NCBI GenBank assembly: GCA_964017235.1 | Contig: OZ024934.1 | Location: 80,876,706 to 80,940,705 of the forward strand | DNA length: 64,000 nucleotides | Direction of reading: 5' to 3' | DNA from: Sabellastarte sp. h YS-2021 | Taxonomy: Eukaryota; Annelida; Polychaeta; Sabellida; Sabellidae | In this document: positions 22,931-64,000 of the stretch, piece by piece | Layout: each line of letters opens with the position of its first letter | Numbering within the stretch: position 1 is the stretch's first letter | Position numbers and translations under genes: made by a program | The notes under the pieces: model-generated | The model's input: the letters and a program-made list of their open reading frames with translations, nothing else | Told to the model about the DNA's origin: nothing | Database searches by the model: none

Positions 22931-23513
22931 GATCGTATGTTAGTGTTAAATGTTATTTTCTGAATTGTGGTTCTCAGGTAGAAAATCACATCTTGAGAAC
23001 TCATTTCCAATCAGGACAAACCATGCAATTTGTGTTGAACTCGAACTTCACAGTTTTCCAACCTTTTTGCTAAATTGCTCATAGCAGGCCGCCTACTTAA
23101 ATTTCTCTAAACCTTGTGATCAATTGCAAATTTATGTGTACAAGTGATTGACCAAACCTGCTGTGTGATGTAAAACTGATATAAAATCCACATTTGTACA
23201 CACCAGACCTGCATGTATGCCATTACAATTCCTTTTACTCAGCATGAAGTGCTACACTCAGAATGGTCCCAAATTGCACAAAAGAGATTCAGAAATTCAG
23301 AATTTTTTTAAACTTTAGGAATAATGAACTACAATCTGAAAACAAACATATAACACTACAAAACAAAATGTTGTTTTGTACTCTTATCTTTTATGAAGAA
23401 TGCATTTCATAGTATTTAATTATAAATCCAATAAAATCTTAAAATGTGTAATTGCACTGCACATGCTTTATTTTAAATTCATCCATTTGGGTATAACATC
23501 ATATTGTACAGAT
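22931..23513. other. Unassigned AT-rich DNA upstream of a possible exon
   Basis: No element or exon seen until the acceptor-like ATATTGTACAG ending at 23513. Confidence 0.35.
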
Positions 23514-23765: not shown

Positions 23766-24208
23766 GATTGAGCTCCAGAATGTAATATCTGATAATTGTC
23801 AGAGGATTGTAGAAAGTTTATGACATATTCCAACAGTTTGAATTTGTAGGGAATACACCTGATTCATTTCCAAACCTTCCTAAAGTTTAAAGGCCAGTCC
23901 CCAAACATCTCCAGAATTTTGCTGAATGTTATGATCATGGTTGACAAACCTCCCCGAATGAACAGATTCACCTCATTAATGCTCCTGAACAGCTGATTTC
24001 CAAGATTGCCATAGTGGTGCAGTCCTATCAATTCTGAAGGAATATATTGATCAATCAAGACTCAAGATTCTGCACTGTAATTACCAAAGACAAAGATTAA
24101 CTTCCCCACTGAAGATTGGGTGTGAGATTCAAGCAATCTCACAACATCCCCATTGTAAATTTTGAGAGAATATGCAACATTTTTAATTTATAACTTCAAC
24201 AAATTACA

Positions 24209-25159: not shown

Positions 25160-26290
25160 ATAGCATCAGAGATGCCCTTAACTCACAGCCCAAGGAAATG
25201 GTTTTCAACACCATGAGACTTAGAAGTAGTGAAACAGTACAAATATCAGGAGACTTTCAGAGCAGTGTCAGTTATATAAAGATCCAAATAATATTTAAGA
25301 AGAGAAAATAACCAAGGTTACCATGACAGGGTCAACAATAAAATCAAGGCCACATCATCACATGTCACTCCTACTTCCTAACCAAGGTCCCCATCAAGTA
25401 TCAACTTCCTACGCCTTACAGTTTCTGAGATACAGCCTAGAAAAGATTTTAAAGGTCAGGGTCACTATGGCAAGGTCAAAGGTCAAATCAAGGCCACACT
25501 ATGACGTTACACACCTACACCCCCAACCAATGTCCCTACCAAATATCAACTTCCTACACCTTACAGGTTCTGAGATACAGGCCATGCCAAGGCCAAATGT
25601 CAAATCAAGGTCACACCATGATGTTGCACACCTACACCCCCAACCAATGTACCGACCAGGTATCAACTTCTTTCCAAGATACAGTCCTTACAAGATTTTA
25701 AGGGTCAAGATCACTACACCAAGTCAAAGGTCAAATCAAGATCACACCAAGATGCTGCACACCTACACCCCCCAACGATTGTCCCTACCAAGTGTCAACC
25801 TTCTACACCTTACAGAATCAGAGAAATAGCCCAAACAAGACTTCAAAAGTTAAGGTCGCTAAAGCAAGGTCAAAGATCAAATGACAGTCACACCATGATG
25901 TTGCACACCTACAATCCCGAAGCAATGTCAATACCAAGCATCAATTTCCTACACCTTGCAGTTTCCGAAATATAGACTGGACAAGATTTTAATGGTCATA
26001 GTCACTACGGCAAGGTCAAAAGTCAAATCAAGGCCACACCATGATATTGGACACCTCCAACCCCAATCAATGTCCCTACCCAGTATCAACTTCCTACACA
26101 TTATGGTTTCTGAGATATAGCCCAGACAACCCCACACACCTACACCCCCATGACAGTTTTAGAGATAAAGCCCGGACAAACTCTTTTTCCCACTCCCTGG
26201 TGCCTGCCCACCCGACTGACTGCCCGCAAGCCCATCGGGACACCATGGGTGAAAACAATACCGGCACAATCTTTAAAGGCTGTGGGATAA
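25160..26290 (-). mobile_element. Family A tandem-repeat element, minus orientation
   Basis: On the plus strand it starts with the end hairpin GCATCAGAGATGC (25163-25175) and the shared end module (GTTTTCAACACCATGAGA). About five to six diverged 146 bp monomers (AGGTCAAAGGTCA, ACTTCCTACACCTTAC) follow. It finishes with CACCATGGGTGAAAACAATA and AAAGGCTGTGGG, the complement of the start of the copy at 56441. It is a nearly full-length non-coding element of about 1.1 kb. Confidence 0.8.
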
Positions 26291-34600: not shown

Positions 34601-37600
34601 AGGTGGCCATAAGTTCTTTTTTACTGGGAGTTTAAGGTCACCTTAAAATAGGGATCTTCCTTTGGGCACCCTTAACATGTGTACCAAGTTTGAAAAAAAA
34701 ATGTTAATTTGTTTTTGAGTTATCGCGTCCACAAGGAAATTTCTACGGCGGCGGCGGCGGCGGCGGCGGCGGCGCGACGGACCTGAATCCAATATATCCC
34801 CGACTTTCGTCTGGGGATATAATAAGGATCCCACATGAAAATGTAAGACGGAAAAATGTTTTACTTTATGTGGTAAACCCATACTCTTCTGTTTGCAAGG
34901 AAAACGCATACATTATGATCGTAAGTGATGTCACTTCCAGGGATCAATATTTTAAGTTCATGTATTCACTCACAATGAAAGCATCATTATTTAAAAACTC
35001 ACTTGGTTAGATATTGGGCACACCTCAATGGCTATATCTTTTTGTTTAACATATTTCATCACTAAAGGATGCTTGGTAATGGCATATCCATGGCCTATTC
35101 GTGTCGCATTGAGCAGAATGGCATCAATTAAATTCTCATCAATTCCTGAGCCCAGCCAGTCTGTCAATACAACATACAGCAGGACAATCCACTTTTGGAA
35201 GATATGGACTTTATAACTGGAACTTTTCCCAAGGTAATGGACAGTAAAAGTCACTTTCAGTTAAACTTTTAAGTTTACAATTTTAATTTTTGCAAATACT
35301 TTTCAGGGTAAGTCTAAACCAAGGATCAATGATTCTAAGGCAGTGTACAAAGATGAAACAGAAAGGTGGTTTCTATTTTATAACAAGATCAAGATAACAT
35401 TTGATATGTACTATTTCCACAAAAAATAATTTTGATTAAAAAAGACATTGAATATACAAAGCATAATATCAGTAGTTAGGTTCTAAATCGTTTTGAAAGG
35501 ATGTAGATGTAAATCTAAATAAAAATGCCTTGACATTTTTTAAATCCAAATCCTTTTATTTTCTAAAAGGATTTAAATCCAAATCATTTTTTTTTTTGCA
35601 AAAAGGAATCAAAATCCTTTTGAAGTAAATTTATAACTTCTAGCATATAATCATCAGGCACATACATTCATAGATATAAATATTAAGTTAGATAATAGTC
35701 CAAGTATATTGTCCAGAAAAGTGAGTTCTTGTAAAACTTTAAGTTGTGATAATGGAGAAATGAAAAAAAAAAAATAATAAATTGAAAAAAAAAAAAAAAA
35801 AAATTCTTAAAAAATCAGGAAGAGGGCTTCGAAGTTTCAACATGATTTTGAGCAAAAGGAAAAGGATTTAAATCTATATACTTTTTTTTGCAAAAGGAAT
35901 TTAAATCCTTTAAAAAGGATTTAAATCTCTCAAAACCAATCCTTGAAGGCTCTGCCCCTGTCCATTTTGACAAGTCTTTGTAACCAAAGTTATGTCGCCA
36001 AGCATTTACTTAGCAGACAAATTAAGGTGGGCCTCCAACATAACGCCACTGTAAGGCTGTCCTCAATTTGCCAATTAAATGTAATCTTTCAGACTTTTTT
36101 TCTACATTAATTTGAATTTAGATGTGATTCATTTCTTACTCTCTTTAATGATTTAAAATGTATCCTTTGGAACAAAAATCAAAAACAAACCTGTCTCTCC
36201 AGCGTGAAAGAAGTATTTCAGTGACATGTTATGCTGAGAGGGATACAATAACTCATCCAGAAAGTATAAAAGGTCATGGCCTGAATCTTCTTGACCTACA
36301 AGGTCAAAGCCAACAAAATAACCTGGAAATTCCATTTGAAATTTCAAGGAGTCATTCACAGTGCTAGCAACTTCCCTCTTTGAAGATGATCTGAAAATGC
36401 ATTAATGTTATACATTTGTGTTAATATTTTAAGAACCACTGGTTAATATTCACACTAATCAAATTATGTACTCTGTATGAATTTGTAAATAAATAAACTG
36501 AAAAAGATTTACCAAAACTTTTCTTTTTCACAGTCAAAACAATTTTGATCATAGCTGAATGTACATCTGGCTCAGTAGGATGCCACTCTGTTTATATCCT
36601 TTACTCTTTATATTCTCAGAAAAAGATGTTACACATAACAGCACCATTTGTCCAATTAGTTTTGCACATCTACAATTGCATAAAATATTGAGATAGCGGA
36701 TTGAGTTTCAGCTAAATAAATCTGTCTAGATGCTACCGTATAATAAGTGTTATAGCTTAATACAAGGTGGCAATTTTCACAGCTTTTACTCAAAAATACC
36801 TTGAAGTAGAATATATCATCTTTGTTCCTGTAAAGTCAGGATATTTCTGCATAAATTCTTCTGATATTTTCTTGTATGTACCAATCATCCATTCTCTGTC
36901 ATATTGATTTCCTGCTATATCAGTCACCTGCAAATGTTATACCTATATTTTTCAGGGGCAAAAATTTGCAGAACTGCCAACTGACACCTGGCAACTTTAT
37001 TTGATTAACAATAGTAATAATAACTAGAGATTGCACCTCAAAGCACTGTATCCCTGGATAGGGCATGGTGTAATTTAACATGAAGAGAAATTCACATTCT
37101 GAAAATGACTGGTGATGTGCTGAAGACTAATGGGTCCAAAAATAAAGCAAATATAAGGATTTTAAAATGTAAGCTCTGTTTGACCTTGAAGTAGGGGTCA
37201 AAGAATAAAAGATATTTTCTCATTTTACTCACTGATAACTACAGAATTTAGCTATTACTCACTTTCCTATTGAGATAGCAATCTAAAACAGGTTCCAGCT
37301 TGTAGGTGCAGAGAAAGTAACATATTTTGGTCAAATGCCCTAAATGTGCAGTCAATTTTGAATTGTAAGCCATTTACTAAAAGTAGCTACTGGTGCTATT
37401 TCTCACCCAGCAATGGATCCAGACTGCAAAAGCAGCAAATTTATGGAGGACCTTGAAGTAGGGTCAAAGTATCAATCCATCCCTTCTAAGATTCACATCC
37501 CATGATTTTCAATAGGTTGTTTTCACATTCCGAACTCCTGAGACTAATAATAATGAAGATATATGGCCTTTTTAGTACACAAACACAGTTTAGTCTTAAA

Positions 37601-40600: not shown

Positions 40601-43071
40601 AGACTGTATCTGAATCTAGACAACTGTATGTACTAAATAATTAATATAAACTCACATCTGTCAAAAGGGCCCTGAATTCAAAATACTGCACATTATCTTC
40701 ATAAAATTCCCTGAGTGCTTCTCGGAAATAGGCTTCAAAAACTGGTTTATAAAATATTAGTCCATCTGCTGCTTTGAACAGTGAGGAAAATTTCTTCCAT
40801 GCCGTTTTCGGCTTGGGATATGCTGTTGCTGGATCACTCACAATAAGACTCATATTGTTGTATAACCTGTAATAAATGTCAAAAAGTTCTTGGCATTCAT
40901 AAAAACAAAATCAAATATGTCTACAACATTTTTGCTGAGAAACTCGACAACATCTTACAAAATATTTTTCCCATCAACAATACTGGTTTTTGTTCCCTCA
41001 CCAAATAACATATGTTAATTTTCACCAGAGTTATACTGAGATTTATGTAGTTATTGTGATGTATCTTTTTTCCTTTTTGTAGAGTAATATGTAAAGTCCC
41101 TGTGAGGTGGTTACCACCACTCCCCTCTGTACAGGGTGTCTGAACAAGCTTTAACAGAGGGAACAAAACCTATATACTTTTTTATGTAAGTCACTCAGTT
41201 AAAGAATAAGAAAGACCTTACAAAATTTCCAATTTGAGAAAATGTATATTCTGAAGAACAAATGCCAGGAACCAATAAATAGAACAAAATATTACAAATA
41301 TTGAGACCTATAACTTACATGTCTCATTTATACAACTGTGTAAAAATAATATGTAACTTTTATTGAAATTTACTTGTTCTGATTACATAAGAAGAAAGAG
41401 TAACTAAGTAAACCCAGATTTATGAAATACCACACAATTTCTTTGACAAATTGGTGGACAATATTTTGATCTTTGTTCAATTACAGTTCTGTTACATAAG
41501 TGCATTTTTTCCTGTTAAATAACCATTTTAAGCTGAAAAATTCAAAGGTTATATTTGAATCCCTCAATATATAAATTTTTAATTCAAAACTGTGAGGTGA
41601 ATTACCATAAAGGGGTAAAATAAAGAACCAAAACACTATTTGACGTTCATTGCCTGTAATTAATTGAGAAAACTTATATGAAATTCTCAGACAAAATTGA
41701 CACTTAAACAATATGATGCTCTCCTCTGAGGAGACTGGTGCTGAAGCGGACTTACTCTTGATTTAAAACCTCACAGAATATAAAATTTTACTTTGCCCAG
41801 TTATCATTAAATATATGTGGGCAATAGCACATTCACTTACCACTGATCAAATGTATGTTGGTCATACTGTTTTCTTACATCACTGACCAAAAGCCACTTG
41901 CACTCTATGGTAAGAAGTTAAAAACAAAAAATGTTATCAACCAAAAGTTTTTGAACCATATGGCCTCACTAAGAGACCTTCTAAGTGTAAATATCTGAAT
42001 TGATTGAATGCCGGTTGATATTCAAATGACTGAAATGAGTAGAACAAAATACTTTGCTTAATTATTATTTCCACATAATAGGGTGTGTTATTTAATTTAT
42101 AAGTCCTTGGTATAATTATCGAGTTGGAATCAGATTTGAAAACTTGAAGTGTTTTCAAAATAACCTATGTTCTGTTTCAGCTACACTTACTGTCTGATTT
42201 TGGAGTGGACTTGGAAAACTTAAACTGCAGTTGTCCCTTTTTGTCAACACACATGTAACAGTGATCCATGTAGGTGGCATTTTTAACAAGCCACCAAACA
42301 TCCACAAGAGAACTATCATGCAAATGCAGGGCAGCACCTAAAAACGAATAGGAAATGCATGTCGATATCTAAGATTATTAATATATTTTAGGTGAGTTAT
42401 AGAATATCAAATTGATTACATTGATACCCGTGTTAAATCTTAAGAAGATGCATATCACAGCCATTTCAACACCAAATTAAATAAATTTAAAATATACACA
42501 GAATTACACACTTAGTGTGAAATAATAACATACCGTACTGTAACACTCGATTAAAAGAATTTACCATGCACCTACAACCTCAAGTTTGCTTTCATTATAT
42601 TTATTTTAGTTTAAGATAAGAATTGAGTCAAAAACTAAAGAAAGTTAACTTCATTCATTACATACTGACAAATTTTGATTAAAATGTTGGTATTTCTTTA
42701 CTGTACACTGCACATCAGACTACAATTAATTTGCCCAACATACCCTTTGGCATTTTTTGCAAAATCTTGAATATTGTGCTGTTTTCAATCAAAGCTTTTG
42801 CTTGGAAGAAGTGTGTGGATGGAGGAAATGATCCTGCAGCAAACCCTTGGTTTATTTCAGCAAGTTTCCACGACATTACTGTCTGGTTTACTTTTAGTTC
42901 CTTGTCGCTCAAATACAAAATTTCCCCAGTCCTCCAACTACTTTCAGTTTTCAAAAATTTCTGCCTTGTTTTAATGTAAGATGATCTGTCTTCACAGTGG
43001 CAGACATGATAAAAAACGACCGTCATAATTATTCCCGTTTTAATGAAGTAAAAAAATCCGCAAGAAGCCAT
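28573..43071 (-). CDS. ADA2: Adenosine deaminase, ADGF/ADA2 family, complete 9-exon gene
   Basis: Joined exons 43071-42744, 42337-42191, 41904-41841, 40866-40656, 36927-36800, 36390-36191, 35160-35003, 29811-29609 and 28669-28573 give 1536 nt, or 511 residues, with all GT-AG junctions in phase. The product should convert extracellular adenosine and deoxyadenosine to inosine forms. Residues 1 to about 26 look like a signal peptide, so it is secreted. Zinc and catalytic motifs are complete: H114-L-H116-D, H355-A-G-E358-T, R-I-G-H383-G, and S-A-D440-D441-P. A cysteine-bearing loop after HLHD matches the receptor-binding insertion of this family. Human ADA2 also has 511 residues and its key residues are offset by only one position from known numbering. 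ADGF proteins of molluscs and insects act as growth factors by removing adenosine. An in-frame Met at 43104 is an alternative start, but the 43071 start places the hydrophobic segment at the N-terminus. It lies head to head with the TMEM263-like gene. Confidence 0.93.
29609..29811 (-). CDS. ADA2: ADA2-like exon 8
   Basis: Encodes [12 protein letters not shown], the zinc-binding [13 protein letters not shown], and [20 protein letters not shown]. It is followed by QLAMNSI at the donor. Confidence 0.93.
30344..30923. mobile_element. 580 bp non-autonomous TIR element (family T1), in ADA2 intron
   Basis: Ends GGGCCCGTATTCATGAAAGG and the near complement CCTTTGTGAATACCAGCCC, with long inner arms of GTCTTAG/CTAAGAC type. 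The interior (ATGGCCGCCATAAAC, CACTTCAAAATTTGAAATGG, AACCACTGTGGTTATTTGAT) matches the complement of the 15848-16435 copy. Confidence 0.8.
31922..32459 (-). mobile_element. 5'-truncated LINE 3' end
   Basis: The minus frame ending at 32112 encodes a C-terminal segment with the knuckle C-x2-C-x8-H-x4-C ([18 protein letters not shown]), which closes many LINE ORF2 proteins. A 3' UTR and a tail of AATAAACTAATAAACTAAAC type near 31946-31922 follow. No catalytic reverse-transcriptase core is left, so the copy is dead. The clade cannot be set from this part. Confidence 0.7.
32465..34640. repeat. Tandem array E, period about 350 bp, ~6 diverged copies
   Basis: The marker GATTTCAGCTCTATCAGTCA recurs in variants near 32774, 33124, 33472, 33824, 34175 and 34526. 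Each copy also holds AGTCCAAATA-TGGGTCT and ACTTACCATTTCCAAGTTAC. Short frames through the array are meaningless. Confidence 0.85.
34743..34776. repeat. (CGG)n microsatellite
   Basis: About nine CGG units ending in CGCGACGG. On the minus strand they give a spurious poly-Arg frame. Confidence 0.9.
35003..35160 (-). CDS. ADA2: ADA2-like exon 7
   Basis: Encodes [17 protein letters not shown] and [11 protein letters not shown]. The junction with exon 6 rebuilds HAGETDW, as in the family. Confidence 0.93.
35470..35950. repeat. AT-rich inverted-repeat region (AAAGGATTTAAATCC)
   Basis: AAAAGGATTTAAATCCAAAT, AAAGGATTTAAATCT, GGAATTTAAATCCTTT and A-rich runs recur in both orientations, making several potential hairpins. 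It may be a small decayed TIR element. Confidence 0.5.
36191..36390 (-). CDS. ADA2: ADA2-like exon 6
   Basis: Encodes [18 protein letters not shown] and the catalytic YFFHAGET at its end, phase 1 before GTTTGT. Confidence 0.93.
36800..36927 (-). CDS. ADA2: ADA2-like exon 5
   Basis: Encodes [18 protein letters not shown] and [13 protein letters not shown], matching the HHDEEW and PEFIGIKIIYS segments of ADA2. Confidence 0.88.
37470..37710 (-). repeat. Satellite family B (146 bp), ~2 diverged monomers in ADA2 intron
   Basis: CCCATGATTTTCAATAGG and CCCATGAGTTTCAATAAG, each followed by ACATTCCGAAC and an AATAATA segment, are spaced about 150 bp apart. Confidence 0.6.
37976..38996 (-). mobile_element. 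Solo LTR of about 1.02 kb in ADA2 intron
   Basis: Termini TGTTAC and GTAACA are flanked by an ACCC duplication (37972-37975 and 38997-39000). On the minus strand TATATAAGG near 38650 could be a TATA box and AATAAA near 38066 a poly(A) signal. No internal retroelement genes are present, so this is a solo LTR fossil. The family is unproven; Ty3-like is possible from the 4 bp duplication. Confidence 0.6.
39640..40170 (-). repeat. Satellite family B (146 bp), ~3.5 monomers in ADA2 intron
   Basis: AATAATAAG...GTTATAAGCACTTTT, AGTTTGGCTACC-like segments, TTTGACCC and GATTTTCTATTTGTTGG recur every ~146-150 bp. This is the reverse of the array at 63.2-64 kb. Confidence 0.75.
40211..40470 (+). mobile_element. 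tRNA-derived SINE with 12 bp TSD, in ADA2 intron
   Basis: The body at 40223-40458 has a degenerate tRNA head (GGTTCAAACCC as B box), a body with GTACTGGTTTCCTCTGCCC, and an (AAAT)n tail. Perfect duplications TGAATGAAGAGC flank it at 40211-40222 and 40459-40470. Confidence 0.88.
40656..40866 (-). CDS. ADA2: ADA2-like exon 4
   Basis: Encodes [20 protein letters not shown] and [15 protein letters not shown], characteristic of ADGF proteins. TTATTACAG acceptor, GTGAGT donor, phase 0. Confidence 0.92.
41841..41904 (-). CDS. ADA2: ADA2-like exon 3 (64 nt)
   Basis: Small exon encoding [20 protein letters not shown], aligning with the CSKW-LLEDYRKR region of vertebrate ADA2. Its phases complete both neighbours. 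Confidence 0.85.
42191..42337 (-). CDS. ADA2: ADA2-like exon 2
   Basis: Carries the first zinc motif, ALHLHDSSL, then the [16 protein letters not shown] segment that starts the receptor-binding insertion. TTTTTAG acceptor and GTAAGT donor. Confidence 0.93.
42744..43071 (-). CDS. ADA2: ADA2-like exon 1
   Basis: Signal peptide and N-terminal dimerisation region, residues 1-109, ending NMPKG-type (here KMPKG) before a GTATGT donor in phase 1. The start Met at 43071 begins [10 protein letters not shown]. Confidence 0.85.
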
Positions 43072-43604
43072 GGTACCGGTACAATACACAAAATAAAGTG
43101 ACAAAATTATATAGTGCTATCCTTTTGCACATCAAGGCACTCCTTCCTTGTGACATATAACCACAGCACATGTCATTGTTTAATTGACCTTATTCAAGGC
43201 TGTTGTCTTGAGATGAAACACAATGTTTCATTGGCGCATTGGATAAGTCTTTGCGCAAACTCATTTGTAACATCATCCAATCAAAATTCATCTTACAAAT
43301 GGATTTTCTTGACACGTAAAATGTCAACAATAAAATGCGCTCTTGAATTGCACTTTTTATTTTAGTCCATGAGACATTGTTAATATTGAAACTGTAAAAC
43401 AAGTAAATTGTTACATTGCGGCAAAACTGTCTTTAAAAGGGAATTTTACTGCTACACTGTATTATTGGTTCCCCTGTGCCTGGAATCATTAATTGACATA
43501 CAATATCGTCTGTCTTTTGTTTCTCAAAATCAGAGGGGCCAGCCGCCAGGAAACGTTTGTGTCGTTGGAAATTTTGCATAGCTGTGCTGATTTCAAGCAA
43601 ACCG
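43072..43604. promoter_or_regulatory. Candidate bidirectional promoter between ADA2-like and TMEM263-like genes
   Basis: Only about 530 bp separate the two divergent start codons. CCAAT boxes occur in both orientations: CCAAT at 43277-43281, and ATTGG at 43230-43234 and 43238-43242. The far boundary depends on the tentative first exon at 43605. Confidence 0.4.
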
Positions 43605-47464: not shown

Positions 47465-48570
47465 CATCCCGCAAGGGACGCTTGTTTGTGTATAGGAGGA
47501 AATCAGGCTCCGCCGGCTCCGCATTTCATTTTCCTTATAAATCCTTATATCCTTGTAGGTGTGCAACGTCATGGTGTGACCTTGATTTGACCTTTGACCT
47601 TGCTGCAGTGACCTTGACCTTTAAAATCTTGTCGGGGCTATATATCAGAAATTCTAAGGTGTAGGAAGTTGGTACTTGGTAGGGATATTGGTTGGGGGTT
47701 GTAGGCGTTCATCATCATGGTGTAGTCTTGATTTGACCTATGACCTAGTCGTAGTGACCATGAGTTTGAAAATCTTGCCTGGGCTATTTATTGGATTTGG
47801 TAAGGTGTAGAAGGTTGACACTTGGTAGGAACACTGGTTGTGGGGTGTATGTGTGCAACTTCTTGGTGTGACCTTGATTTGACCTTTGACCTTGCTTTAG
47901 TGACCTTGACCTATAAAATCTTGTCGGGGCTATATCTCAGAAACTCTAAGGTGTAGGAAGTTGGAACTTGGTAGGGATATTGGTTGGGGGTTGTAGGCGT
48001 TCATCATCATGGTGTAGTCTTGATTTGACCTATGACCTAGTCGTAGTGACCATGAGTTTGAAAATCTTGCCTGGGCTATTTATTGGATTTGGTAGGGTGT
48101 AGAAGGTTGACACTTGGTAGGGACATTGGTTAGGGGGTGTAGGTGTTCATCATGGTGTGACCTTTAACTTTGGCTCTGCCAAAGTGTGTTCACCTGCAAG
48201 ATTTGAGACATGTTTCCCTTATGATAATTTTTGATATTTTGATTGCTGCAACTGATTAGTTTGTATACTTTTGTATAATTGTGCTATTTTATCGACAGCT
48301 ATACTCCAATTAATAAAATTTACAGCTTTGTAATTTTTAGTTTACTGATTAATGCTGTGATCGTGTATTGAAATGTCTTGATTTAATACTTTATCTTTAC
48401 ATTTTCTTTCTTTTAGAAGTTATTTTCTCTACTTAAACATTATTTGGAGCTTTATATAACTGACACTGCTCTAAAAGTATCCAGATCTTTGTACTTTTTC
48501 ACCACTTCTGTATTTCATGGTGTTGAAAACTATTTCCCCATACTGTGGGGTACAGGCATCTCTGATGCTA
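47465..48570 (+). mobile_element. Family A tandem-repeat element with GTCCC hairpin end
   Basis: Starts with the hairpin CATCCCGCAAGGGACG and CTTGTTTGTG, then about 4.5 family A monomers of ~146 bp (GACCTTTGACCTTG, GGTGTAGGAAGTTGG). A non-repetitive flank (TTTAACTTTGGCTCTGCC, CAGCTATACTCCAATTAATA) follows, then the shared end module, closing with GCATCTCTGATGC at 48556-48568. It is nearly full length. Confidence 0.8.
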
Positions 48571-48861
48571 TTTTTCTTTTATGTTCATGCATAAACATCC
48601 ACACTGTCTCCTTAACTTTCGCTTCTTCTCTCAGTGCTGCATACTTTTCTTTTCAAAAAGCTTTTTCTACTTTATACTATATTGCATCTAAGCTTTGGGG
48701 ACGCTTTGTTTTTGTTAGCAAAAACATTTTTCCAGTTAACAGTAAAGGAAACAATCAAAGAATGTTTTTCTTCTGAACCAAATGACTGGTAATCGGTTAA
48801 GCATCAGGTGTATGTGCGACAAAAAGAAGTTTAATTGCTATTGAATAATATGACTGTTTTA

Positions 48862-49079
48862 GAGTAAGAAATCTAAAATTCGTCCAGAATCTAAAATTCG
48901 CCACCTCTAAACCTTAGTTAATTTCATGAAGAAAATGATGTTTTGTCTTAAAATTGGTATTTTTCAGTTCAAAAAGCCTTATTTTAAATTCAGCAAATCT
49001 CAAGTCAATTAATTTATTTTATTTGTATTTCAACATGTGGCGAATTTCAGATATGTGGCGAATTTCAAATTTCTTACTC
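48862..49079 (+). mobile_element. MITE family M, copy 2 (218 bp)
   Basis: GAGTAAGAAATCTAAAATTC and its complement at the ends, TA duplications at 48860-48861 and 49080-49081. Confidence 0.9.
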
Positions 49080-49089
49080 TATATGTTTT

Positions 49090-52215: not shown

Positions 52216-52220
52216 ATTAA

Positions 52221-53745
52221 GCGTCCCGCGAGGGACGCTTGTTTGTATATGGGAGAAGCGACTCCGCCGGATCTGCATTTTCTTTTTCGCAATAGCTTCG
52301 CAGCCATAAGGCGGATTCTTTTCATTTTTGGCAGGTGTATGCAGTAGCCCTGGGAAATTTTTCGGAATATGCTGCGATGACATTTTCACCAATCAGAGAG
52401 GTCACATGACAAAAAATGCGCTTTTTGGAAGGGCGTCTTGTATGGATGATAACTTACGAAGCATTTTATCTATCCACCTGAATTTAAGAAATACCTTCCT
52501 CATATAAAGATCTGGGCGACATTAAATTTTGGCAGGGATAGGTTAAGAAATAACTGAGGTTTGATGATTAATTAAGCATTAACAATTTCTTAACGAGTAA
52601 AACACAAAACTGCTTGTATCTCCTTAACCGTGTGAGATAGAGCGATTTCGTCAAAATTTTCAAACCAAATGGTATTGAAAGAAACTACTCTTTCCAACTT
52701 TCCAAAAATTTTCTCCTTCCCAAAAATGGGGGTCATATTCAATATTCGAATTTTTCGAAAAAAATGCAAAAAACAAAATTGGAAATATAGGCTCATAAGG
52801 TACACATATAGAACAATACTAAGTGATATGAATACTTTTTGAAAACATTTTCTTCATAAAATAAACATTTACCAGTGGGATTTCGACAAAATTTTTGACC
52901 CACAGGGTATCTGTGAAGACCACCCTTTCCAAGTTTCAACAAATATTTCACTCGCCAAAAATAGCGGCCATTTTGAATTTTCGATTTTTTTTTCAAAAAT
53001 GCAAAACACAAAAATTCTTGTATCTCGAAAAGCATGCTAGGTAGAGCTATTTCAATGAAATTTTTGACATGGAGGGTAACTCTGCTGAGTAGGTGACCCA
53101 ATTTTCAAAAAAAATTTGTCCCGCCAAAAATGGTAGCCTTTTTGAATTTTCTGCAAAAGTCACAAAACACAAAAATGCTTGTATCTCTAAAACCGTGTGA
53201 GATAGAGTGATTTCAGCAAAATTTTTGACCCACAGGGTATCTGTGAAGACTAGCCTTTCCAAGTTTCAACGAATATCTCACTCGCCAAAAATGGCACCCA
53301 TTTTGAATTTTCAAATTATTTTCAAAAATGCTTGAATCTCGAAACCGTGCTACATACAGTGATTTCAACGAAATTTTTGACCCGCAAGGTAACTTCGCTG
53401 AGTAGCTGACCCAGTTTTCAAAAAAAAAATGTGTCCCGTCAAAAATGGTGGCCATTTTGAATTTTCGCAAAAATTGCAAAACACACACACACAAAAAATG
53501 CTTGTATCTCCAAAACAGTTTGACAGAGCAATTTCACCAAAATTTTTGATCCACAGGGGGTCTGTGAAGACTAGCCTTTCCAAGTTTTAAAGAATTTTTC
53601 ACTCTCCAAAAATGGGGGTCATTGTCGATTTTCAAATTTGTGAGAAAAGTGCAAAACACCAAATTGCCTGTCTTCTTAACCGTGCAAGATAGAGCAATTT
53701 CATCAAAATTTTTGAAACTCACTGTATCCAAGATAACTACCCTGC
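52221..53745 (+). mobile_element. Element with GTCCC hairpin end and satellite family D (~165 bp)
   Basis: Begins with the perfect hairpin GCGTCCC-GCGA-GGGACGC (52221-52238) and CTTGTTTGT, as at 47465. Then about seven units follow from 52600 to 53745, marked by AATGCTTGTATCTC, AACCGTG, CAAAATTTTTGACCCACAGG and AAAATGG-GGCCATTTTGAAT. Period is 154-235 bp, mostly near 165. Overlapping minus frames in the array are repeat artefacts. Confidence 0.8.
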
Positions 53746-53979
53746 CTAAGAACCACTTTTCCTATATTCTGGCTTTGTTGAGCTATAAGCAGAACTTTCT
53801 TAAATGATTAAGCTGCCATTAATTCTCCTTTTCAGGACGCTTTGTGTTTGCCATGCAAAAACAATCTCTTTGTTCTGCAAGCGATCCTGTAGTTATAGTG
53901 GCTTTAAGGTTAATCACTCTAATGGCTATTGTTAAAAACTGACTAAATGGATTTCAGTCATGTTTGGTATATCTTTGCC

Positions 53980-54169: not shown

Positions 54170-56440
54170 ATAATTATATAACCACCTAGCTGCAGTTGTA
54201 CTGATTGTAGATTAATTCAAATAGCTTGGACTTAAGGGGATTTGCCCCTGGCTCAACTTTTTAAAGCATAAGACTTGTTTTTATATCTGTGCCTGCAAAT
54301 TATCAGGATACAGCGTGACATTGAACTATTTTTACAAATGCTTACTTTATTAAGTCGAAGGCTATATTTCATACTTACAAAGTGTTACATTTTGATTATG
54401 TTACTGATGGTGTTGTCTTTCATTACATAAAATAATTTACAATGTACAATGTGGTAAATAAAAAAAAATCTCCGAATTTAAGAAGTTAAAAATTTTTTCT
54501 TTACTTAACTGCTCTTGAATAAAATACCAGACCTTTCTTCATTATGGCATGACCAGTATTCTACTTTGTGTTTATTTACTTGAATCTGATGGTAATATAG
54601 TGCATTTGTAAATTGGAGGATCTGATTCTGTTGCTGCCAAAGATGGCTTGGTATCAGCGTTTGGTGTAAGTGCATGCTGCACTCTTAAACTGGAGTAGAC
54701 TCTGCATTTATATGAGTATCCAGTATATCCTTAGGTTTCAACCTCGTTCTTAAAACATATCCACTGTTCCCCTATTATCACCCTGCATCTCTCTGATGCC
54801 GACATCATTTCTTGTTCCTGGATTATTACCTGCATCAAGGAGGTTGTGTTTTTTGCTGATGTACATTTGTCTGTCTGTTTGCAAAATAACTAAAAAAAGT
54901 TAAGGACAGATTTCGATAAAATTGTCAGAAAATATCAACAATGGCATAAGGAATGGATGTTTTTGATTTAGGTGGTGATCTGGATAACTGTCTGGATCCA
55001 GGAATTTTTTCTAAGGATTTATCATTGCACTTAGAAGCAATACTGGAGCTATTGAGGTTTGGTGAGATATGCACTGTCTGAGTATTCTTGTTGAAATTGA
55101 ATTTGTTCTGGTTTATAGTAATGTAGAGCCTCTTTATGGTGCAGGTTGATGTTATAAGAGTTGGTTAAAAATACTGCATTTTCTGATGCATTGTTTTTTG
55201 CCCTTAAAACTGTCTTTACTTGTGCATGTAATCAACTCAAGCTGGTTCTAGTTAGAGTAAGAAATCTAAAATTCGCCACATATCTGAAATTCGCCACAGG
55301 TGAAAATACTAATAAAATAAATGAATTGTGGTGAGATTTGTTGACTGTATAGTAAATTAAGGCTTTTTGAACTGAAAAATACCAATTTTTAGACAAAAAC
55401 ATCATTTTCTTTATAAAATTAACTAAGGTTTTAGCGGTGGCGAATTTTAGATTCCTGGCGAATTTTAGATTTCTTACTCTACAGCATTTTATTGTATAAA
55501 CTTTTCATATTTATACCAACACATCATACCAGCATCTTAAGTGTTACATGTATTGCTGACAAAGTGTTTCTTTTCAAGTGTTAAAACCCAGAGTATAGAA
55601 ACTCTTCTTAAACAAAGATTCTAACCTGGCATAGTTGTGTCCGCGATTCTGATTGGCTAATCAAGGAAATATTTCATCGGTAAAAGCAGCATAACCCTTG
55701 GCTTTCTATTATCACTCACGATGGCTACCCCTTTTTGTCATTAAACTATAAATAATAACACTATTTTTTGCATTTAAAAACATGTTAGATTTGCCTTTAA
55801 GGTTTATAACCTCACACCATGGTAAAATTCTGTGTGTATCATGGTTTGTCGGGGGGTATTCGTAAATTATATAAAGTCCTCCATAGCCCTTGTCCACTTG
55901 AATTTACCCTGTTGACTTTCCTTCGCAAGTAGAGGTATGCTTCTGGTCCCTTGAAATTTTATGATACGTTCAAAAGGTGTATCAAAATAGTAGTTTTTCT
56001 TTTGACTGATATTGATAAAAAAATAACGAAATTGAAAGAAGAAAGTTGTAGAGAGCAAAAGAGTTTGGATGACTTTTATAATGAAAAAAAGTCTATCAAA
56101 ATAGTTGTTTCTTTTTATTGATAATAATAAAATTTTTTCCAAATTTAAATGAAAAAAAAATTGAATTGTTCAAGCATACATGTGACTTGTATATATACTG
56201 GTGTGATATATTGATGGTATATATGTAAATGTGGCATTTTTGTACATTAGGGTGAAGGAAATAAGTTTCTTGAGCACAGTATTATCATTATTTGGTTGGT
56301 TTTTGATCCAATATGTCTTTCTTAGTATTGCTGTAAACACAGATAATTTTGCTGCTATTTAAACATGTTTATGTATGAAATGATTGGAATACTTGTCTTT
56401 TAGTTCAACCATTATTTTTGTAGTGATAATAATTACCCCA
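54170..56440. other. AT-rich DNA without a recognisable gene, apart from MITE copy 3
   Basis: No exon or RNA gene recognised. The MITE at 55255-55479 is listed separately. Confidence 0.4.
55255..55479 (-). mobile_element. MITE family M, copy 3 (225 bp)
   Basis: Ends GAGTAAGAAATCTAAAATTC and GAATTTTAGATTTCTTACTC, TA duplications at 55253-55254 and 55480-55481. Inverted relative to copies 2, 4 and 5. Confidence 0.92.
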
Positions 56441-58172
56441 CAGCCCTTAAGGGCTGTTAGGGTATTGTTTTCACCCATGGTGTCCGGATGGGCGGGCGGG
56501 CGGCGGGAAATAGTTTGTCCGGGCTGTATCTCAGAAACCGTAAGGTGTAGGAAGTTGATACTTGGTAGGGACATTGGTTGGGGGGTGTAAGTGTGCAACG
56601 TCATGGTCTGACCTTGATTTGACCTTTGACCTTGCCGTAGTTACCTTGAGTTTGAAAATCTTGTCCGGGCTATATCTCGGAAACCGTAAGGTGTAGGAAG
56701 TTGATACTTGGTAGGGACATTGGTTAGGGTGTGTAGTTGTGCAACGTCATGGTCTGACCTTGATTTGACCTTTGACCTTGCTGTAGTGACCTTGACCTAT
56801 AAAATCTTGTCCGGGCTATATCTCGGAAACCGTAAGGTGTAGGAAGTTGATACTTAGTAGGGATATTGGTTAGGGGGTGTAGGTCTGCAACGTCATGGTC
56901 TGACCTTGATTTGACCTTTGACCTTGCCGTAGTGGCCTTGACCTATAAAATCTTGTCCGGGCTATATCTCGGAAACCGTAAGGTGTAGGAAGTTGATATT
57001 TGGTAGGGACATTTGCTAGGGGGTGTACGTGTGCAGTGTCATGGTCTGACCTTGATTTGACCCTTGACCTTGTCGTAGTGGCCTTAACCTATAAAATCTT
57101 GTCCGGGCTATATCTCGGAAACCGTAAGGTGTAGAAAGTTGATACTTGGTAGGGATATTGGTTAGGGGGTGTAGGTGTGCAATGTCATGGTCTGACCTTG
57201 ATTTGACCTTTGACCTTGCCGTAGTGACCTTGACCTATAAAATGTTGTCCGGGCTATATCTCGGAAACCGTAAGGTGTAGGAAGTTGGTTCTTGGTAGGG
57301 ACATTGGTTAGGATGTGTAGGTGTGTAACGTCATGGTCTGATCAAGATTTGACCTTTGACCTTGCCGTAGTGACCTTGCGTTCAAAAATTTTGTCCGGGC
57401 TATATCTCGGAAACCGTAAGGTGTAGGAAGTTGATACTTGGTAGGGACATTGGTTAGGGGATGTAGTTGTGCAACGTCATGATCTGACCTTGATTTGACC
57501 TTTGACCTTGGCGTAGTGACCTTGACATATAAAATCTTGTCCGGGCTATATCTTGTAAACCGTAAGGTTGAGGAAGTTGATACTTGCTAGGGACATTGGT
57601 TAGGGGCTATAGGTGTGTATTATCATGGTGTCACCTTAATTTGATCTTTGACCTTGTCGTAGTGACCTTGACCTATAAAATCTTGTTGTACCTTTGGGTC
57701 TCTCTTTTGATGCAGATTACGCACTATTAAAGTCATATTAGAATTTATTAAGAATTTTACTTTCATAACTTCCCATTGTGTAAGAGATAGAATTTCATCA
57801 AGTGAGCCACAGATTTTGCTCCAACACCACACATAAGCATTCATTAAATGTATTACCACTTCTGTATGCATGGTAATATTCAAACCATCTAAATCATAAT
57901 TCGGGCCTTGCAGATGTAGATAAAGAGGGTTGAATTTTAGTTTGTTGATTAATGCTGTCATCTTGTTATTGAATTATCTTGTTTTAATACTTCATCTTTA
58001 TATGCATGATCTTTCTTTTAAACATTATTTCTCCATTTAAACATTGTTTGGACCTTTATATAACTGACAGTGCTCTGAAAGTATCCTGAAGTTTGTACTG
58101 ATACAGTACTTCTGTATCTCATGGTGTTGAAAATATTTCCCTAGGCTGTGGGGTACGGGCATCTCTGATCCT
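56441..58172 (+). mobile_element. Family A tandem-repeat element, 8 monomers, best copy
   Basis: Starts with the perfect 16 bp palindrome CAGCCCTTAAGGGCTG, then a G-rich stretch (GGGCGGGCGGGCGGCGGG). Eight monomers follow, with TGACCTTTGACC-type marks at 56619, 56766, 56912, 57058, 57204, 57350, 57496 and 57642, an almost exact 146 bp period. A unique flank to 58050 precedes the shared end module with GGCATCTCTGATCC (58158-58171). There is no protein-coding potential. It resembles non-autonomous pearl/Helentron-like elements with central tandem repeats; class is inferred. Confidence 0.85.
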
Positions 58173-58321: not shown

Positions 58322-58545
58322 GAGTAAGAAATCTAAAATTCGCCAGCAATCTAAAATTCGCCACCTCTAAAACCTTAGTTAATTTTATGAAGAAAATCAT
58401 GTTTTCGTCTCAAAAGTGGTATTTTCAGTTCAAAAAGCCTTAATTTACTATACATTCAACAAATCTCACCACAATTCATTTATTTTATTAGTATTTTCAC
58501 ATGTGGCGAATTTCAGATATGTGGCGAATTTTACATTTCTTACTC
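58322..58545 (+). mobile_element. MITE family M, copy 4 (224 bp)
   Basis: Complementary ends starting GAGTAAGAAATC, TA duplications at 58320-58321 and 58546-58547. Confidence 0.93.
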
Positions 58546-58913
58546 TACTTTAAAATTAATGTGTTCAGTAGAAATATGATGGACTATCACTTTAGTTTGT
58601 GTTGTGTAATGTTTTGAAGGATTTGAAATGTTTTTTTTTTTACTACGCAACATGCTATGGTGTCTCTACCTATTTGCAGATCTTACCTGGTTTATTAACT
58701 GGGGTGTCAATTTGTACCACAATCAGGTACATTATATACTTGCACGATGTTATCATTGCTTTCAACAGCTGTTACTGCATCTGATTGTGTCTCTCATCTC
58801 ACTAAATGTACATCAGGTCAAGTTCATATTCATAATAAATTTGATGATGGGTTACAGATATGATATTTGACAAAATTTCTCATATTAAAATGAGATATGG
58901 AACTACTCTAATA

Positions 58914-59137
58914 GAGTAAGAAATCTAAAATTCGCCAGGAATCTAAAATTCGCCACCTCTAAAACCTTAGTTAATCTTATGAAGAAAATGATGTTTTTGT
59001 CTAAAAATTGGTATTTTTCAGTTCAAAAAGCCTTATTTACTATACCGTCCACAAATCTCACCACAATTCATTTATTTTATTAGTATTTTCACATGTGGCG
59101 AATTTCAGATATGTGGCGAATTTTAGATTTCTTACTC
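58914..59137 (+). mobile_element. MITE family M, copy 5 (224 bp)
   Basis: Perfect 24 bp terminal inverted repeats (GAGTAAGAAATCTAAAATTC plus GCCA), TA duplications at 58912-58913 and 59138-59139. Same orientation as copy 4, only about 370 bp away. Confidence 0.95.
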
Positions 59138-59355
59138 TACATATCTGCTGGCTGTGAGAAGTTGAATAAATTATTTGATTATTAGACATTTCTGATATTA
59201 AAATTGGAATATAAGTTGTTTTGGATTTCATTAGGTTATATGTTTACACCTTTGAGGATTTGTTAAAGCACCCGTTCAAGCTTTTAAAGAAGAAACTGGT
59301 CAGCTGTATCATGTTTTGTTGAGTTATATTGTGCATATACTGTAGATAGTTTTTA

Positions 59356-59610
59356 TGTCAGCTGACTTGTCAGTCAGCTGACATTATGTCGTCACTCTGC
59401 GGCGTGGGCGTACGCGTACGCGTCCGCGTACGCGTCCGCGTGAACAACTTCTCCTCCAAAACTACAAGGCCTAGAGACGTACTGTTTTTTTTAAAAGATA
59501 CCTTATCTATCGAGGATGAAAAATTGTTCAAGGCATGCAAATCTGTCTGTTCGTCTGTTTGCTAGAGACATTACAAGGGGGGTACCCCCACCAAAAGTGT
59601 AAAAATTTCA
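59356..59610 (+). mobile_element. Hairpin and CG-rich end sequence before the 155 bp satellite array
   Basis: A perfect 11 bp stem, TGTCAGCTGAC (59356-59366) with GTCAGCTGACA (59373-59383), has a 6 nt loop. It is followed by a CGTACGCG/CGTCCGCG tandem at 59408-59441 and a GGGGGTACCCCC palindrome near 59578. It is probably the terminal module of the element carrying the array at 59786-63222. Confidence 0.55.
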
Positions 59611-59785
59611 ACACTTAATCACAATTTTCTCAGTGACTATTGCAGGGATTTCTCTCATATCTTGCATATATGTACTAGGCCACAGGTAGATTCTCTTGTG
59701 TGAGTATGAGACCTGGATCTGTCTTACTTTTTTTTTAATAAATTTTTTTAATAATTTTTAATGCATTAAAATTCATGAAATCATG

Positions 59786-62700
59786 CACAAAATCATTTAT
59801 AACTTGAAAAGTGTTGCATTTAGAGCATTTTGTTAAAATATGTTATTCAGCTACTTTTTGCATAGCTACAATATGGTGAGTAAGTTGGGTGCCTGTCTCA
59901 ATAGCTAAGTGAGTAATAGCTACTTTTGGGCTTTTCAGTAACTTCCATCATGAGTAAAATCACTTGTAACTTAAAAACTATTGCATTTAGAGAATTTCGT
60001 ATAAATATGTTATTCAGCTACTTTTGGGTCAGCTATAACATAGTGAAATTTCAGACCTGTAGCTCATGGCATAGCTGAGTAATAGCTACTTTTAGGTTAT
60101 CACTGTTGAGTAAATCGCTTATAACTTGAAAACTATTGCATTTAGAGAATTTCGTATAAATATGTTATTCAGCTACTTTTGGGTCAGCTATAACATAGTA
60201 AAATTTCAGACCTGTAGCTCATGGCATAGCTGAGTAATAGCTACTTTTAGGTTATCACTGTTGAGTAAATCGCTTATAACTTGGAAACTATTGCATTTAG
60301 AGTATTTTGTTTCAATATGTTATTCACCTATTTTGGGATCAGCTATAACATAGTGAAGTTTCAGATCTGTGGCTCATTGCATAGCTGAGTAATAGCTACT
60401 TTGAAGTTCTCACTATTGAGTAAATTACTTGTAACTTAAAACCTATTGCATTTAGAGAATTTCGTATAAATATGTTATTCAGCTACTTTTGGGCCAGCTA
60501 TAACATAGTGAAATTTCAGATCTGTAGGTCATGGCATAGCCGAGTAATAGCTACTTTGAAGTTCTCACTATTGAGTAAATCAGTTGTAATTGGAAAACTA
60601 TTGCATTTACAGAATTTCGTATAAATATGTTATTCAGCTACTTTTGGGTCAGCTATAACATAGTAAAATTTCAGACCTGTAGCTCATGGCATAGCTGAGT
60701 AATAGCTACTTTTAGGTCATCACTATTGAGTAAATCGGTTGTAACTTGAAAACTATTGCATTTACAGTATTTTGCTTAAATATGTTGTTCACCTACTTTT
60801 GGGTCAGCTATAACATAGTAAAATTTCAGACCTGTAGCTCATTGCATAGCTGAGTAATAACTACTTTGAGGTTCTCACTATTGAGTAAATCAGTTGTAAT
60901 TGCAAAAGTATTGCATTTAGAGAATTTCGTATAAATATGTTATTCAGCTACTTTTGGGCCAGCTATAACATAGTGAAATTTCAGACCTGTAGGTCATGGC
61001 ACAGCTGAGTAATAGCTACTTTGAAGTTCTCACTATTGAGTAAATCAGTTGTAATTGGAAAACTATTGCATTTACAGAATTTCGTATAAATATGTTATTC
61101 AGCTACTTTTGGGTCAGCTATAACATAGTAAAATTTCAGACCTGTAGCTCATGGCATAGCTGAGTAATAGCTACTTTTAGGTCATCACTATTGAGTAAAT
61201 CGGTTGTAATTTGAAAACTATTGCATTTACAGTATTTTGCTTAAATATGTTGTTCACCTACTTTTGGGTCAGCTATAACATAGTAAAATTTCAGACCTGT
61301 AGCTCATTGCATAGCTGAGTAATAACTACTTTGAGGTTCTCACTATTGAGTAAATCAGTTGTAATTGCAAAACTATTGCATTTAGAGAATTTCGTATAAA
61401 TATGTTATTCAGCTACTTTTGGGCCAGCTATAACATAGTGAAATTTCAGATCTGTAGGTCATGGCACAGCTGAGTAATAGCTACTTTGAAGTTCTCACTA
61501 TTGAGTAAATCAGTTGTAATTGGAAAACTATTGCATTTAGAGAATTTAGTATAAATATGTTATTCAGCTACTTTTGGGTCAGCTATAACATAGTAAAATT
61601 TCAGACCTGTAGCTCATGGCATAGCTGAGTAATAGCTACTTTTAGGTCATCACTATTGAGTAAATCGGTTGTAACTTGAAAACTATTGCATTTACAGTAT
61701 TTTGCTTAAATATGTTGTTCACCTACTTTTGGGTCAGCTATAACATAGTAAAATTTCAGACCTGTAGCTCATTGCATAGCTGAGTAATAACTACTTTGAG
61801 GTTCTCACTATTGAGTAAATCAGTTGTAATTGCAAAACTATTGCATTTAGAGAATTTAGTATAAATATGTTATTCAGCTACTTTTGGGTCAGCTATAACA
61901 TAGTAAAATTTCAGACCTGTAGCTCATGGCATAGCTGAGTAATAGCTACTTTTAGGTCATCACTATTGAGTAAATCAGTTGTAACTTGAAAACTATTGCA
62001 TGTACAGTATTTTGCTTAATATGTTGTTCACCTACTTTTGGGTCAGCTATAACATAGTAAAATTTCAGACCTGTAGCTCATGGCATAGCTGAGTAATAGC
62101 TACTTTGAGGTTATCACTGTTGAGTAAATCGCTTATAACTTGGAAATTATTGCATTTAGAGTATTTTGTTTCAATATGTTATTCACCTATTTTGGGGTCA
62201 GCTATAACATAGTGAAGTTCCAGACCTGTGACTCATTGCATAGCTGAGTAATAGCTACTTTGAAGTTCTCAATGTTGAGCAAATCACTTATAATTTGAAA
62301 ACTATTGCATTTAGAGAATTTAGTATAAATATGTTATTCAGCTACTTTTGGGTCAGCTATAACATAGTAAAATTTCACACCTGTAGCTCATGGCATACCT
62401 GAGTAATAGCTACTTTTAGGTTATCACTGTTGAGTAAATCACTTATAACTTGGAAACTATTGCATTTAGAGTATTTTGTTGCAATATGTTATTCACCTAT
62501 TTTGGGGTCAGCTATAACATAGTGAAGTTCCAGACCTGTGGCTCATTGCATAGCTGAGTAATAGCTACTTTGAAGTTCTCACTGTTGAGTAAATCAGTTG
62601 TAATTGGAAAACTATTGCCTTTACAGAATTTTGTTTAAATATGTTATTCAGCTACTTTTGGGTCAGCTATAACATAGTGAAATTACAGACCTGTAGCTCA

Positions 62701-63222
62701 TGGCACAACTGAGCAATAGCTATTCTCAGGCACTGACTGTTGAGTAAATCGGCTATAACTTGAAAAATATTGCATTTGGAGTATTTTGTTAAAATATATT
62801 GTTGACCTACTTTTGGGTTAGCTATAACATAGTGAAATTACAGACCTATAGCTCATGGCATAGCGGAGCAATAGCTATTTTCAGGTTCTCACTATTGAGT
62901 AAATCAGTTGTAACTTGGAAACTATGGCATTTACAGTATTTTGCTTAAATATGTTGTTCACCTACTTTTAGGTCAGCTATAACAGAGCAAAAATTCAGAC
63001 ATGTACCTCATTGCATAGCTGAGTAATAGTTACTTTGAGGTTCTCACTCTTGAGTAAATCAGTAGTAACTTGAAAACTATTACATTTAGAGTATTTTGTT
63101 AAATATGTTATTCACAGACGTTTTGGTCAGCTATAACATAGTGAAATTGCAGACCTCTATGTCATGGCATAGCTGAGCAATAGCTTCTTTCAGGCTCTCA
63201 CTGTTGAGTAAATCATTGTATC
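59786..63222 (+). repeat. Satellite family C, 155 bp monomers, ~22 copies
   Basis: Markers TTGAGTAAATC, CTATTGCATTTA, ATATGTTATTCA, GGTCAGCTATAACATAGT, TTTCAGACCTGTAGCTCAT and GCTGAGTAATAGCTACTTT recur with a steady 155 bp step (for example 60571, 60726, 60881, 61036, 61191, 61346, 61501, 61656, 61811). The central part forms a three-monomer higher-order repeat of 465 bp. Edge monomers are more diverged. Confidence 0.95.
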
Positions 63223-64000
63223 CAACCTGTAGGAAATCATGGGCTGGGAATCTGTTAATATGGTCCGATTTGACCTTGGAACCCTCCTTCAAGGTCAAAT
63301 GAGGATAGCCAAACATAAAAGTGCTTATAACTCGCTTATTATTGGTCCTAGAGGTTTGGAATGAAAACCAACCTATAGAAAATCATGAGCTGGGAATTTT
63401 TTGGTGTGGTCGGATTTCACCTTGGACCCCTCCTTCAAGGTCAAATGAGGATAGCCAAACTTAAAAGTGCTTATAACTCGCTATTATTGGTCCTAGAGGT
63501 TTGGAATGGAAAACCAACCTATAGAAAATCATGGGCTGGGAATCTTTTGGTGTGGTCAGATTTCACCTTAGACCCCTCCTTCCAGGTCAAACGAAGATAG
63601 CCAAACTTAAAGTGCTTATAACTCGCGTATTATTGGTCTTGGAGGTTTGGGATGGTAAACCAACATATAGGAAATCATGGGCTGGGATTCTTTTGGTGTG
63701 GTCAGATTTGACCTGGGACCCCTCCTTCAAGGTCAATTGAGGATAGCCAAACTTACAATTGCTTAGAACTCGCTTATTATTGGTCCTACAGGTTTGGGAT
63801 GGTAAACAAGCTACAGGAAATCATGGGCTGGGAATTTTTTTGTGTGGTCGGATTTCACCTTGGACCCCTCCGTCAAGGTCAAACAAGGATAGCCAAACTT
63901 AAAAAGTGCCTATGACTCACTTATTATTGGTCCGAGAGGTTTGGGATGGTAAACCATCCTAAATTCTTTGGCTGGGAATCTTTTGCTATGGTCAGATTTG
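63223..64000 (+). repeat. Satellite family B, 146 bp monomers, ~5 copies, runs off the window
   Basis: AAATCATGGGCTGGGAAT, TGGACCCCTCCTTCAAGG, GAGGATAGCCAAACTTAA and TTATTATTGGTCCTAGAGG recur every ~146 bp. The array abuts family C inside a monomer near 63214-63230. Confidence 0.92.

Follow-up and report, generated by a model that had tools for sequence, protein, structure and literature searches.

To our knowledge, satellite repeats of different families usually have little in common. The locus described here, a window of 64,000 nucleotides of Sabellastarte sp. DNA, raises the question of why it should be otherwise: a first-pass annotation proposed that five tandem-repeat families in it, A to E, differ in period and sequence and yet contain one and the same module of about 35 bp. 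We asked whether the module is real, what carries it and how it came to be common to the five. All five families are present in the window, and the strings that had been quoted for them were found in the orientation given. Below, L044 denotes the 4 kb directly beyond the window end.

22153-22931, minus strand: A array, 146 bp
25690-26129, minus strand: A array, 146 bp
32773-34406, minus strand: E array, 351 bp
47553-48164, plus strand: A array, 146 bp
52880-53638, plus strand: D array, about 161 bp, with boxes from 52612
56515-57686, plus strand: A array, 146 bp
59790-63220, plus strand: C array, 155-bp units with one box each, starting 5 nt ahead of a box and ending 7 nt inside one; listed as a tandem repeat at 59951-63220
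63222-64000, plus strand: B array, 146-bp units with a box, continuing to 64036 (L044:36)

A short box common to unlike satellite repeats

The box, GnnTnTAACTCGnAAACnnTnnGnnnnAGnnnnTTnnnAC, is about 36-40 bp long and occurs once per monomer, in one orientation, in families A-E. Monomers measure about 144-175 bp and hold one box each. E and a further family, F (302-303 bp where TRF resolved the repeats), are dimers of that spacing; the 351-bp unit of E consists of two monomers of about 175 bp with a box in each. We searched the genome (1.79 Gb, 647 contigs) with an 18-nt core, TTRTAWCTYRRAAACYRT, a pattern written from the window families that the usual form of A does not fit. The core gave 79,096 + 80,174 = 159,270 exact matches, and its reversed-pattern control gave 15 + 11 = 26. 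The annotation had looked to conservation in a single orientation, with an unalignable rest, for support, and these counts together with the profile tests below provide it.

In a leave-one-family-out test, each of nine groups was scored with a profile made from the other families only and compared with 1000 dinucleotide shuffles of the held-out stretch. Seven groups passed. The score was reached by none of the shuffles for A, D, the C repeat, the E repeat and another family, G, by two for B, and by one for the single copy that follows the C microsatellite. The best match lay at the box in all seven, and the reverse strand scored lower, the narrowest gap being that of C (21.7 versus 18.2 on the reverse strand). 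The E copy next to the microsatellite (52/1000) and F (171/1000, with the best match away from the box) did not pass. The claim of a module of about 35 bp common to the five families thus stands, at 0-2/1000 shuffles for the A-E repeats.

Along the unit, offsets 0-40 were significant in A, B, C, D, E1 and G (0-2/500 shuffles) and weaker in E2 (13/500) and in the two F boxes (F1 90/500, F2 49/500). Offsets 30-75 were not common to the families (G 8/500, all others at least 51/500), nor were offsets 70-142, for which the lowest of 18 tests was 23/500, in E1. The remainder of the unit thus does not align. The annotation had also allowed that other repeats of the same genome might align to the module equally well. 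Seven such tandem repeats, six from 130 kb elsewhere in the genome and one from the window, scored at most 14.6 on the profile; the F array is one of the seven. Scores of 18 or more were obtained in 2/800 mononucleotide-shuffled chunks versus 91/2568 real chunks, nearly all of the latter within these arrays or dispersed B-type units, and a few of them (L003 twice, L004, window 23901-24100) probably due to chance. These data confirm that one short box, in fixed orientation, is common to several very different satellite repeats.

Two other approaches did not clearly single the box out. Whole-unit pairwise alignment of the five consensuses with lenient gaps did not distinguish it, and a search for ungapped motifs in five stretches that follow a microsatellite gave weak results (5/40, 1/40 and 1/40 shuffles). 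Both would favour the view that AT-rich repeats, selected by eye, happen to resemble one another. That view is refuted by the genome counts, 159,270 versus 26 for the core and 1,796 versus 0 and 0 for the box behind a microsatellite (below), and seven of the nine groups were significant in the leave-one-out profile tests; we assign it practically no probability. A scan of the window with Rfam at gathering thresholds gave no match.

The arrays lie in elements of Helentron-type build

The elements that hold arrays A, C+B, D, E and F have the build of Helentron-type non-autonomous elements (HINE; DINE-1/pearl-like). The plan comprises a 5' hairpin, usually a GC-rich microsatellite, the tandem repeats and, on the 3' side, the 5' repeat in inverse form with a stem-loop after it.

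25163-26289, minus strand: second A element, degenerate at both its 5' and its 3' end
31232-34821, minus strand: E element, with 5' hairpin 34821-34793 (z -4.82)
34782-34746, minus strand: GTCC/CCG microsatellite of the E element, with the first box-like copy from about 34726
31262-31250, minus strand: 3' inverse of the E element, with stem-loop 31247-31232
47466-48725, plus strand: D-type ends around a 5'-truncated A element, with 5' hairpin 47466-47483
48697-48706, plus strand: 3' inverse of this D-type copy, with stem-loop 48708-48725
52219-53864, plus strand: D element, with 5' hairpin 52219-52240 (z -4.96)
53834-53842, plus strand: partial 3' inverse of the D element, with an imperfect stem-loop to 53864
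56434-58171, plus strand: A element, with 5' hairpin 56434-56464 (z -4.05)
56490-56507, plus strand: GGGC microsatellite of the A element, seen by eye and absent from the TRF list
58144-58155, plus strand: 3' inverse of the A element, with a stem-loop imperfect in this copy
59355-64000 and about 310 bp beyond the window (L044:1-308), plus strand: C+B element, two consecutive arrays
59355-59366, plus strand: 5' repeat of the C+B element, with its inverse at 59373-59384 (fold z -6.91)
59408-59439, plus strand: GC-rich GCGTAC/GCGTCC microsatellite of the C+B element
59444-59503, plus strand: single-copy box after the C microsatellite (60 nt, the box being the first 40 nt or so)
L044:277-288: 3' inverse of the C+B element, one mismatch, with stem-loop L044:289-308

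The right end of the C element is not visible in the window because the B array runs to the window end. Before the next 4 kb were fetched, an inverse, GTCAGCTGACAT, and a stem-loop were predicted to lie 3' of the B array. The sequence beyond the window contained GTCAGCTGACAC, with one mismatch, and then AGTGCCCG-TTCA-CGGGCACT at L044:289-308. The element's 3' end was therefore found beyond the B array, and C and B are two arrays of one element. An inverse followed by a stem, at no more than one mismatch, occurred in 0/200 shuffles each for C+B and E. By energy, the 3' stem-loop of E is weak (z -1.46; 26/200 shuffles fold as well). The same inverse-plus-stem scan gave no match for A, D or the D-type copy, whose stems are shorter than 6 bp or imperfect and, in D, whose inverse is partial; their ends were placed by eye. 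In A, the stem-loop GCATC-TCT-GATGC is present in two sister copies, at 25163-25175 on the minus strand and 48556-48568 on the plus strand. No clear microsatellite was seen in the D element.

The Rep domain profile Helitron_like_N matched the genome 24 times (best E 2.2e-31) and none of 14 control genomes. Two of the matches belong to long open frames, 2245 and 1783 aa in length. An autonomous Helentron would encode Rep, helicase and endonuclease and have ends that match those of its non-autonomous partners. A mobilising enzyme for these elements is therefore plausible from sequence, with the caveat that Helitron_like_N cannot separate Helentrons from Helitrons.

The box follows the microsatellite

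A pattern of microsatellite and then box within 4-34 nt gave 981 + 815 = 1,796 genome matches, some places being counted twice through overlapping starts. The reversed control of the microsatellite-gap-box pattern gave no match in the genome, and neither did the microsatellite with a reverse-complemented box. Sorting by eye distinguished four or more element types among the 100 microsatellite-box places listed.

(GTCC)n was also searched independently of the box, with 118 + 100 matches; 30 loci were cut out, 24 of them distinct and 6 duplicates. Eighteen of the 24 were of type F, with a hairpin upstream in 17, and two of the F loci, L031 and L033, have common flanking sequence. Since the F box is not significant alone, these 18 loci carry a weak version. 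Three further loci were of type F2, a relative of F, all with the hairpin. The box was clearly present in the two loci of type G, neither of which had a hairpin within 110 nt of the microsatellite, and G is therefore not established as a HINE. At the remaining locus, L021, both hairpin and box are lost. HINEs insert between T and T; the left ends of F often lie within T-rich sequence. The 3' inverse and stem-loop of F were placed by eye in L015, L036 and L008. C-like arrays also occur behind F2 ends (L024, L041), and B arrays were found both behind C and behind F.

In viral contigs, the strict microsatellite-box pattern gave no match. Two looser patterns returned 6 and 41 stretches there (42 distinct), five of which have an arm pair of 7-9 bp upstream; these stretches were judged by eye to be chance. 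Contigs of prokaryote genomes gave seven matches of the microsatellite-box pattern, and these, too, were taken to be chance occurrences in bacterial DNA.

Divergence of the box within families

One explanation offered by the annotation was a protein-binding box comparable to the CENP-B box; that is, the host would select the site in satellite DNA and keep it for a chromosomal function. Strong conservation between families, the fixed orientation and the unalignable remainder are what such a site would lead one to expect, and the monomer length is nucleosome-like. Like the CENP-B box of alpha satellite, the box is a short piece within a satellite monomer. However, of the nine essential bases of the CENP-B box, which we take to be NTTCGNNNNANNCGGGN, the seven monomers have 5-6, no more than shuffled boxes yield (means 4.8-5.5, maxima 6-8), and we rejected the identity. 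Also unlike the alpha-satellite box, the copies are dispersed and element-borne. Of 13 stretches of 10 kb chosen by hand on 12 contigs, 4 contained matches with a profile score of at least 20, and the first 2.8 Mb of contig C1 hold about 36 plus-strand core matches per Mb versus a genome mean of 44.

Nor does the box diverge less than the remaining unit in any consistent way. Among resident copies, divergence of box and rest is close in A (.103/.108), B (.136/.148), D (.144/.130) and G (.098/.100), higher in the box in C (.206/.132) and F (.201/.177), and lower in the box only in E (.104/.156). A slow-evolving site within families is not supported, except perhaps in E. Resident-copy divergence thus speaks against a binding site maintained by the host in these copies and leaves constraint on active masters; a binding role of the box in the transposition of active elements is possible. 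In oyster, Cg170, a related kind of repeat, has been reported from primary constrictions and as coinciding for the most part with CenH3 signals, which would favour a host site; as described in the sections of PMC7348941 drawn on here, it is also dispersed and missed the enrichment criteria in CenH3 ChIP. Taken together, we regard a host-selected site as improbable, and the likening of the module to a CENP-B box had to be given up. A satellite-wide box should not be read as a centromere or host-protein site before its carrier has been checked.

The same values bear on the annotation's other explanation, descent from one ancestral repeat. In its plain form, all families would derive by divergence from one repeat of about 150 bp, of which the box would be the slowest part. 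The occurrence of one box per 144-175 bp monomer, with E and F as dimers of the same spacing, argues for this. In contrast, the box is not the slow part within families, except perhaps in E; a lower substitution rate in resident copies is therefore no explanation, and constraint would be needed in active masters only. Plain divergence is a possibility that we rate as somewhat doubtful. Common descent is supported in a modified form: the box, its orientation and the spacing of one box per monomer are common to the families, and the box also occurs outside arrays.

Joins between families and array ends

Eight joins between families were examined. In three loci (L028, L039 and L034) the F-to-B join lies at unit positions 24/17, whereas L036 has it at 7/12 and L015 at 0/17. 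The C-to-B join in the window lies at 7/46; L008 adds a join at 14/0 in only one of two junction analyses. The B array of the window sits inside a split C box, the right half of which, by eye, lies directly 3' of the B array end at L044:36. From the box start, the A array at 56515-57686 ends at -7 and -3, and the C array at 59790-63220 at -5 and +7. Single junctions such as these look like exchange at the box.

The box might accordingly be a hot spot of recombination or template switching that persists through exchange there, as has been proposed for Box 1 of Meloidogyne. The position of the B array within the split C box argues for this, as do several loci in which an F-to-B join falls at corresponding points of the two boxes. 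However, a single event, copied, probably accounts for several of the F-to-B joins, and two joins lie away from a box-to-box position (L026 at 119/141, L005 at 16/115). When array ends were counted with 40-unit queries and record edges excluded, neither starts (12/24 in near-box bins, expected 0.40, P 0.22) nor ends (12/28, P 0.45) were enriched at the box. We therefore claim no hot spot. For the bivalve BIV160/Cg170 repeats, too, the sections of PMC5139131 used here report no statistical support. A hot spot is, in our view, unlikely.

Proposed origin of the arrays

We think it likely that the box is an inherited, element-oriented piece of HINEs from which arrays were repeatedly built. The observations behind this proposal are the ends of A, C+B, D, E and F, the position and orientation that the box takes after GTCY microsatellites, the presence of one box per monomer, its abundance, and the Rep-domain genes. 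The order in such a HINE would be 5' hairpin, usually a GC-rich microsatellite, box, central repeats, 3' inverse and stem-loop, the central repeats being tandem units of about 144-175 bp with one box each in the element's orientation. Units may have been built more than once from the stretch that starts at the box behind the microsatellite, and the box would be common to the families because of this. The remainder of each unit would later have been replaced or have diverged, and whole arrays would have moved between elements. Tandem growth may have proceeded through rolling-circle slippage or unequal exchange, replacement of the remainder may have involved captured DNA or exchange, and the box may have a role in the replication of active master copies.

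A broader proposal makes the box an ancient cis-element of Helentron-type elements that, in animals from molluscs to insects, follows the GTCY microsatellite; active masters would need it for replication, and new satellites would grow from it as their seed. The stretch after the GTCY microsatellite of Drosophila DINE-1 presumably resembles the box; DINE-1 also has a core of about 90 bp that is conserved across 12 Drosophila species. We put this forward tentatively, as somewhat less than an even prospect; if true, many unrelated-looking animal satellites would have a common root. Because one box occurs across six or more repeat families and again after the microsatellite in elements that carry such repeats, the origin of new satellites becomes testable.

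Relation to described repeats

Boxes common to unlike satellites are already known, from BIV160/Cg170 (PMC5139131), Cg_HINE (PMC7492417) and Box 1 (PMC3694981); our comparisons concern those sections of the papers that describe repeat structure. Cg_HINE of Crassostrea gigas has a microsatellite in the left flank, a subTIR with an inverted repeat, and a 3' subTIR and palindrome. Its central satellite-like repeats are mostly 140-180 bp long, sometimes in two consecutive arrays, and CL1/2/10/13 and CL4 have two conserved segments in common and are dissimilar in the rest (PMC7492417). The present elements have the same features, as compared by description only. In Cg_HINE, the segments lie within one related group, whereas here the box is found in six or more repeat families and adjoins the microsatellite as well. 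The plan and order of the present elements also match the HINE and DINE-1 descriptions in PMC4067079 and PMC2374699. The central repeats of DINE-1/INE-1 and of mite HINEs are unrelated between species (PMC4067079, PMC2374699); in contrast to the present elements, a box common to unlike central repeats is not mentioned in the sections of these two papers considered here.

The BIV160/Cg170 repeats of bivalves consist of divergent monomers with two well-conserved motifs, are related to pearl (CvA) repeats, and have junctions loosely near a motif (PMC5139131). They are like the present families in combining divergent monomers with a common conserved motif, a likeness of description and not of compared motif sequences. 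Box 1 of Meloidogyne is a 17-bp box found in satellites with as little as 32% identity, in which monomers switch exactly at the box (PMC3694981). It thus resembles our case in being a short box across otherwise unlike satellites. Box 1 is reported as CENP-B-box-like and, in the sections of PMC3694981 considered, is not tied to Helentrons, whereas the present box has no CENP-B likeness beyond chance; and monomers switch exactly at Box 1, whereas array ends are not enriched at the present box. Within the open-licence literature searched, outside which the original BIV160 and pearl papers lie, three features appear to be new: the breadth of at least six families, the fixed polarity and the position after the microsatellite. 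Five 14-16-mers were not found printed in open-licence papers.

Other features of the window and its flank

Exons of adenosine deaminase lie on the minus strand of the window (PF08451 at 42715-43116, PF00962 at 35003-35161). The E element starts (34821) about 180 bp past the second of these exons, apparently within its intron.

The A units (56515-57686, 47553-48164, 22153-22931) contain several AGGTCA half-sites, TGACCTTTGACCT and TGACCTTGA, and the B units (63222-64000) carry TCAAGGTCA. We take both to be like nuclear-receptor sites, many of which A and B elements would then spread.

By eye, an inverted-repeat element of about 230 bp, with ends like AGAGTAAGAAATCTAAAATTCGCCA, occurs at about 48862-49080, 55258-55482, 58324-58552 and 58912-59142, and a relative of it lies just beyond the window at L044:350-545. 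Adjacent long frames at 18407-20331 on the minus strand look by eye like a degraded retroelement or tyrosine-recombinase element; they had no Pfam match at E 1. Further beyond the window are an inverted B array (L044:1140-1990), another element hairpin (L044:2317-2342) and a short A element (L044:2571-2870) in which the box comes soon after the 5' hairpin.
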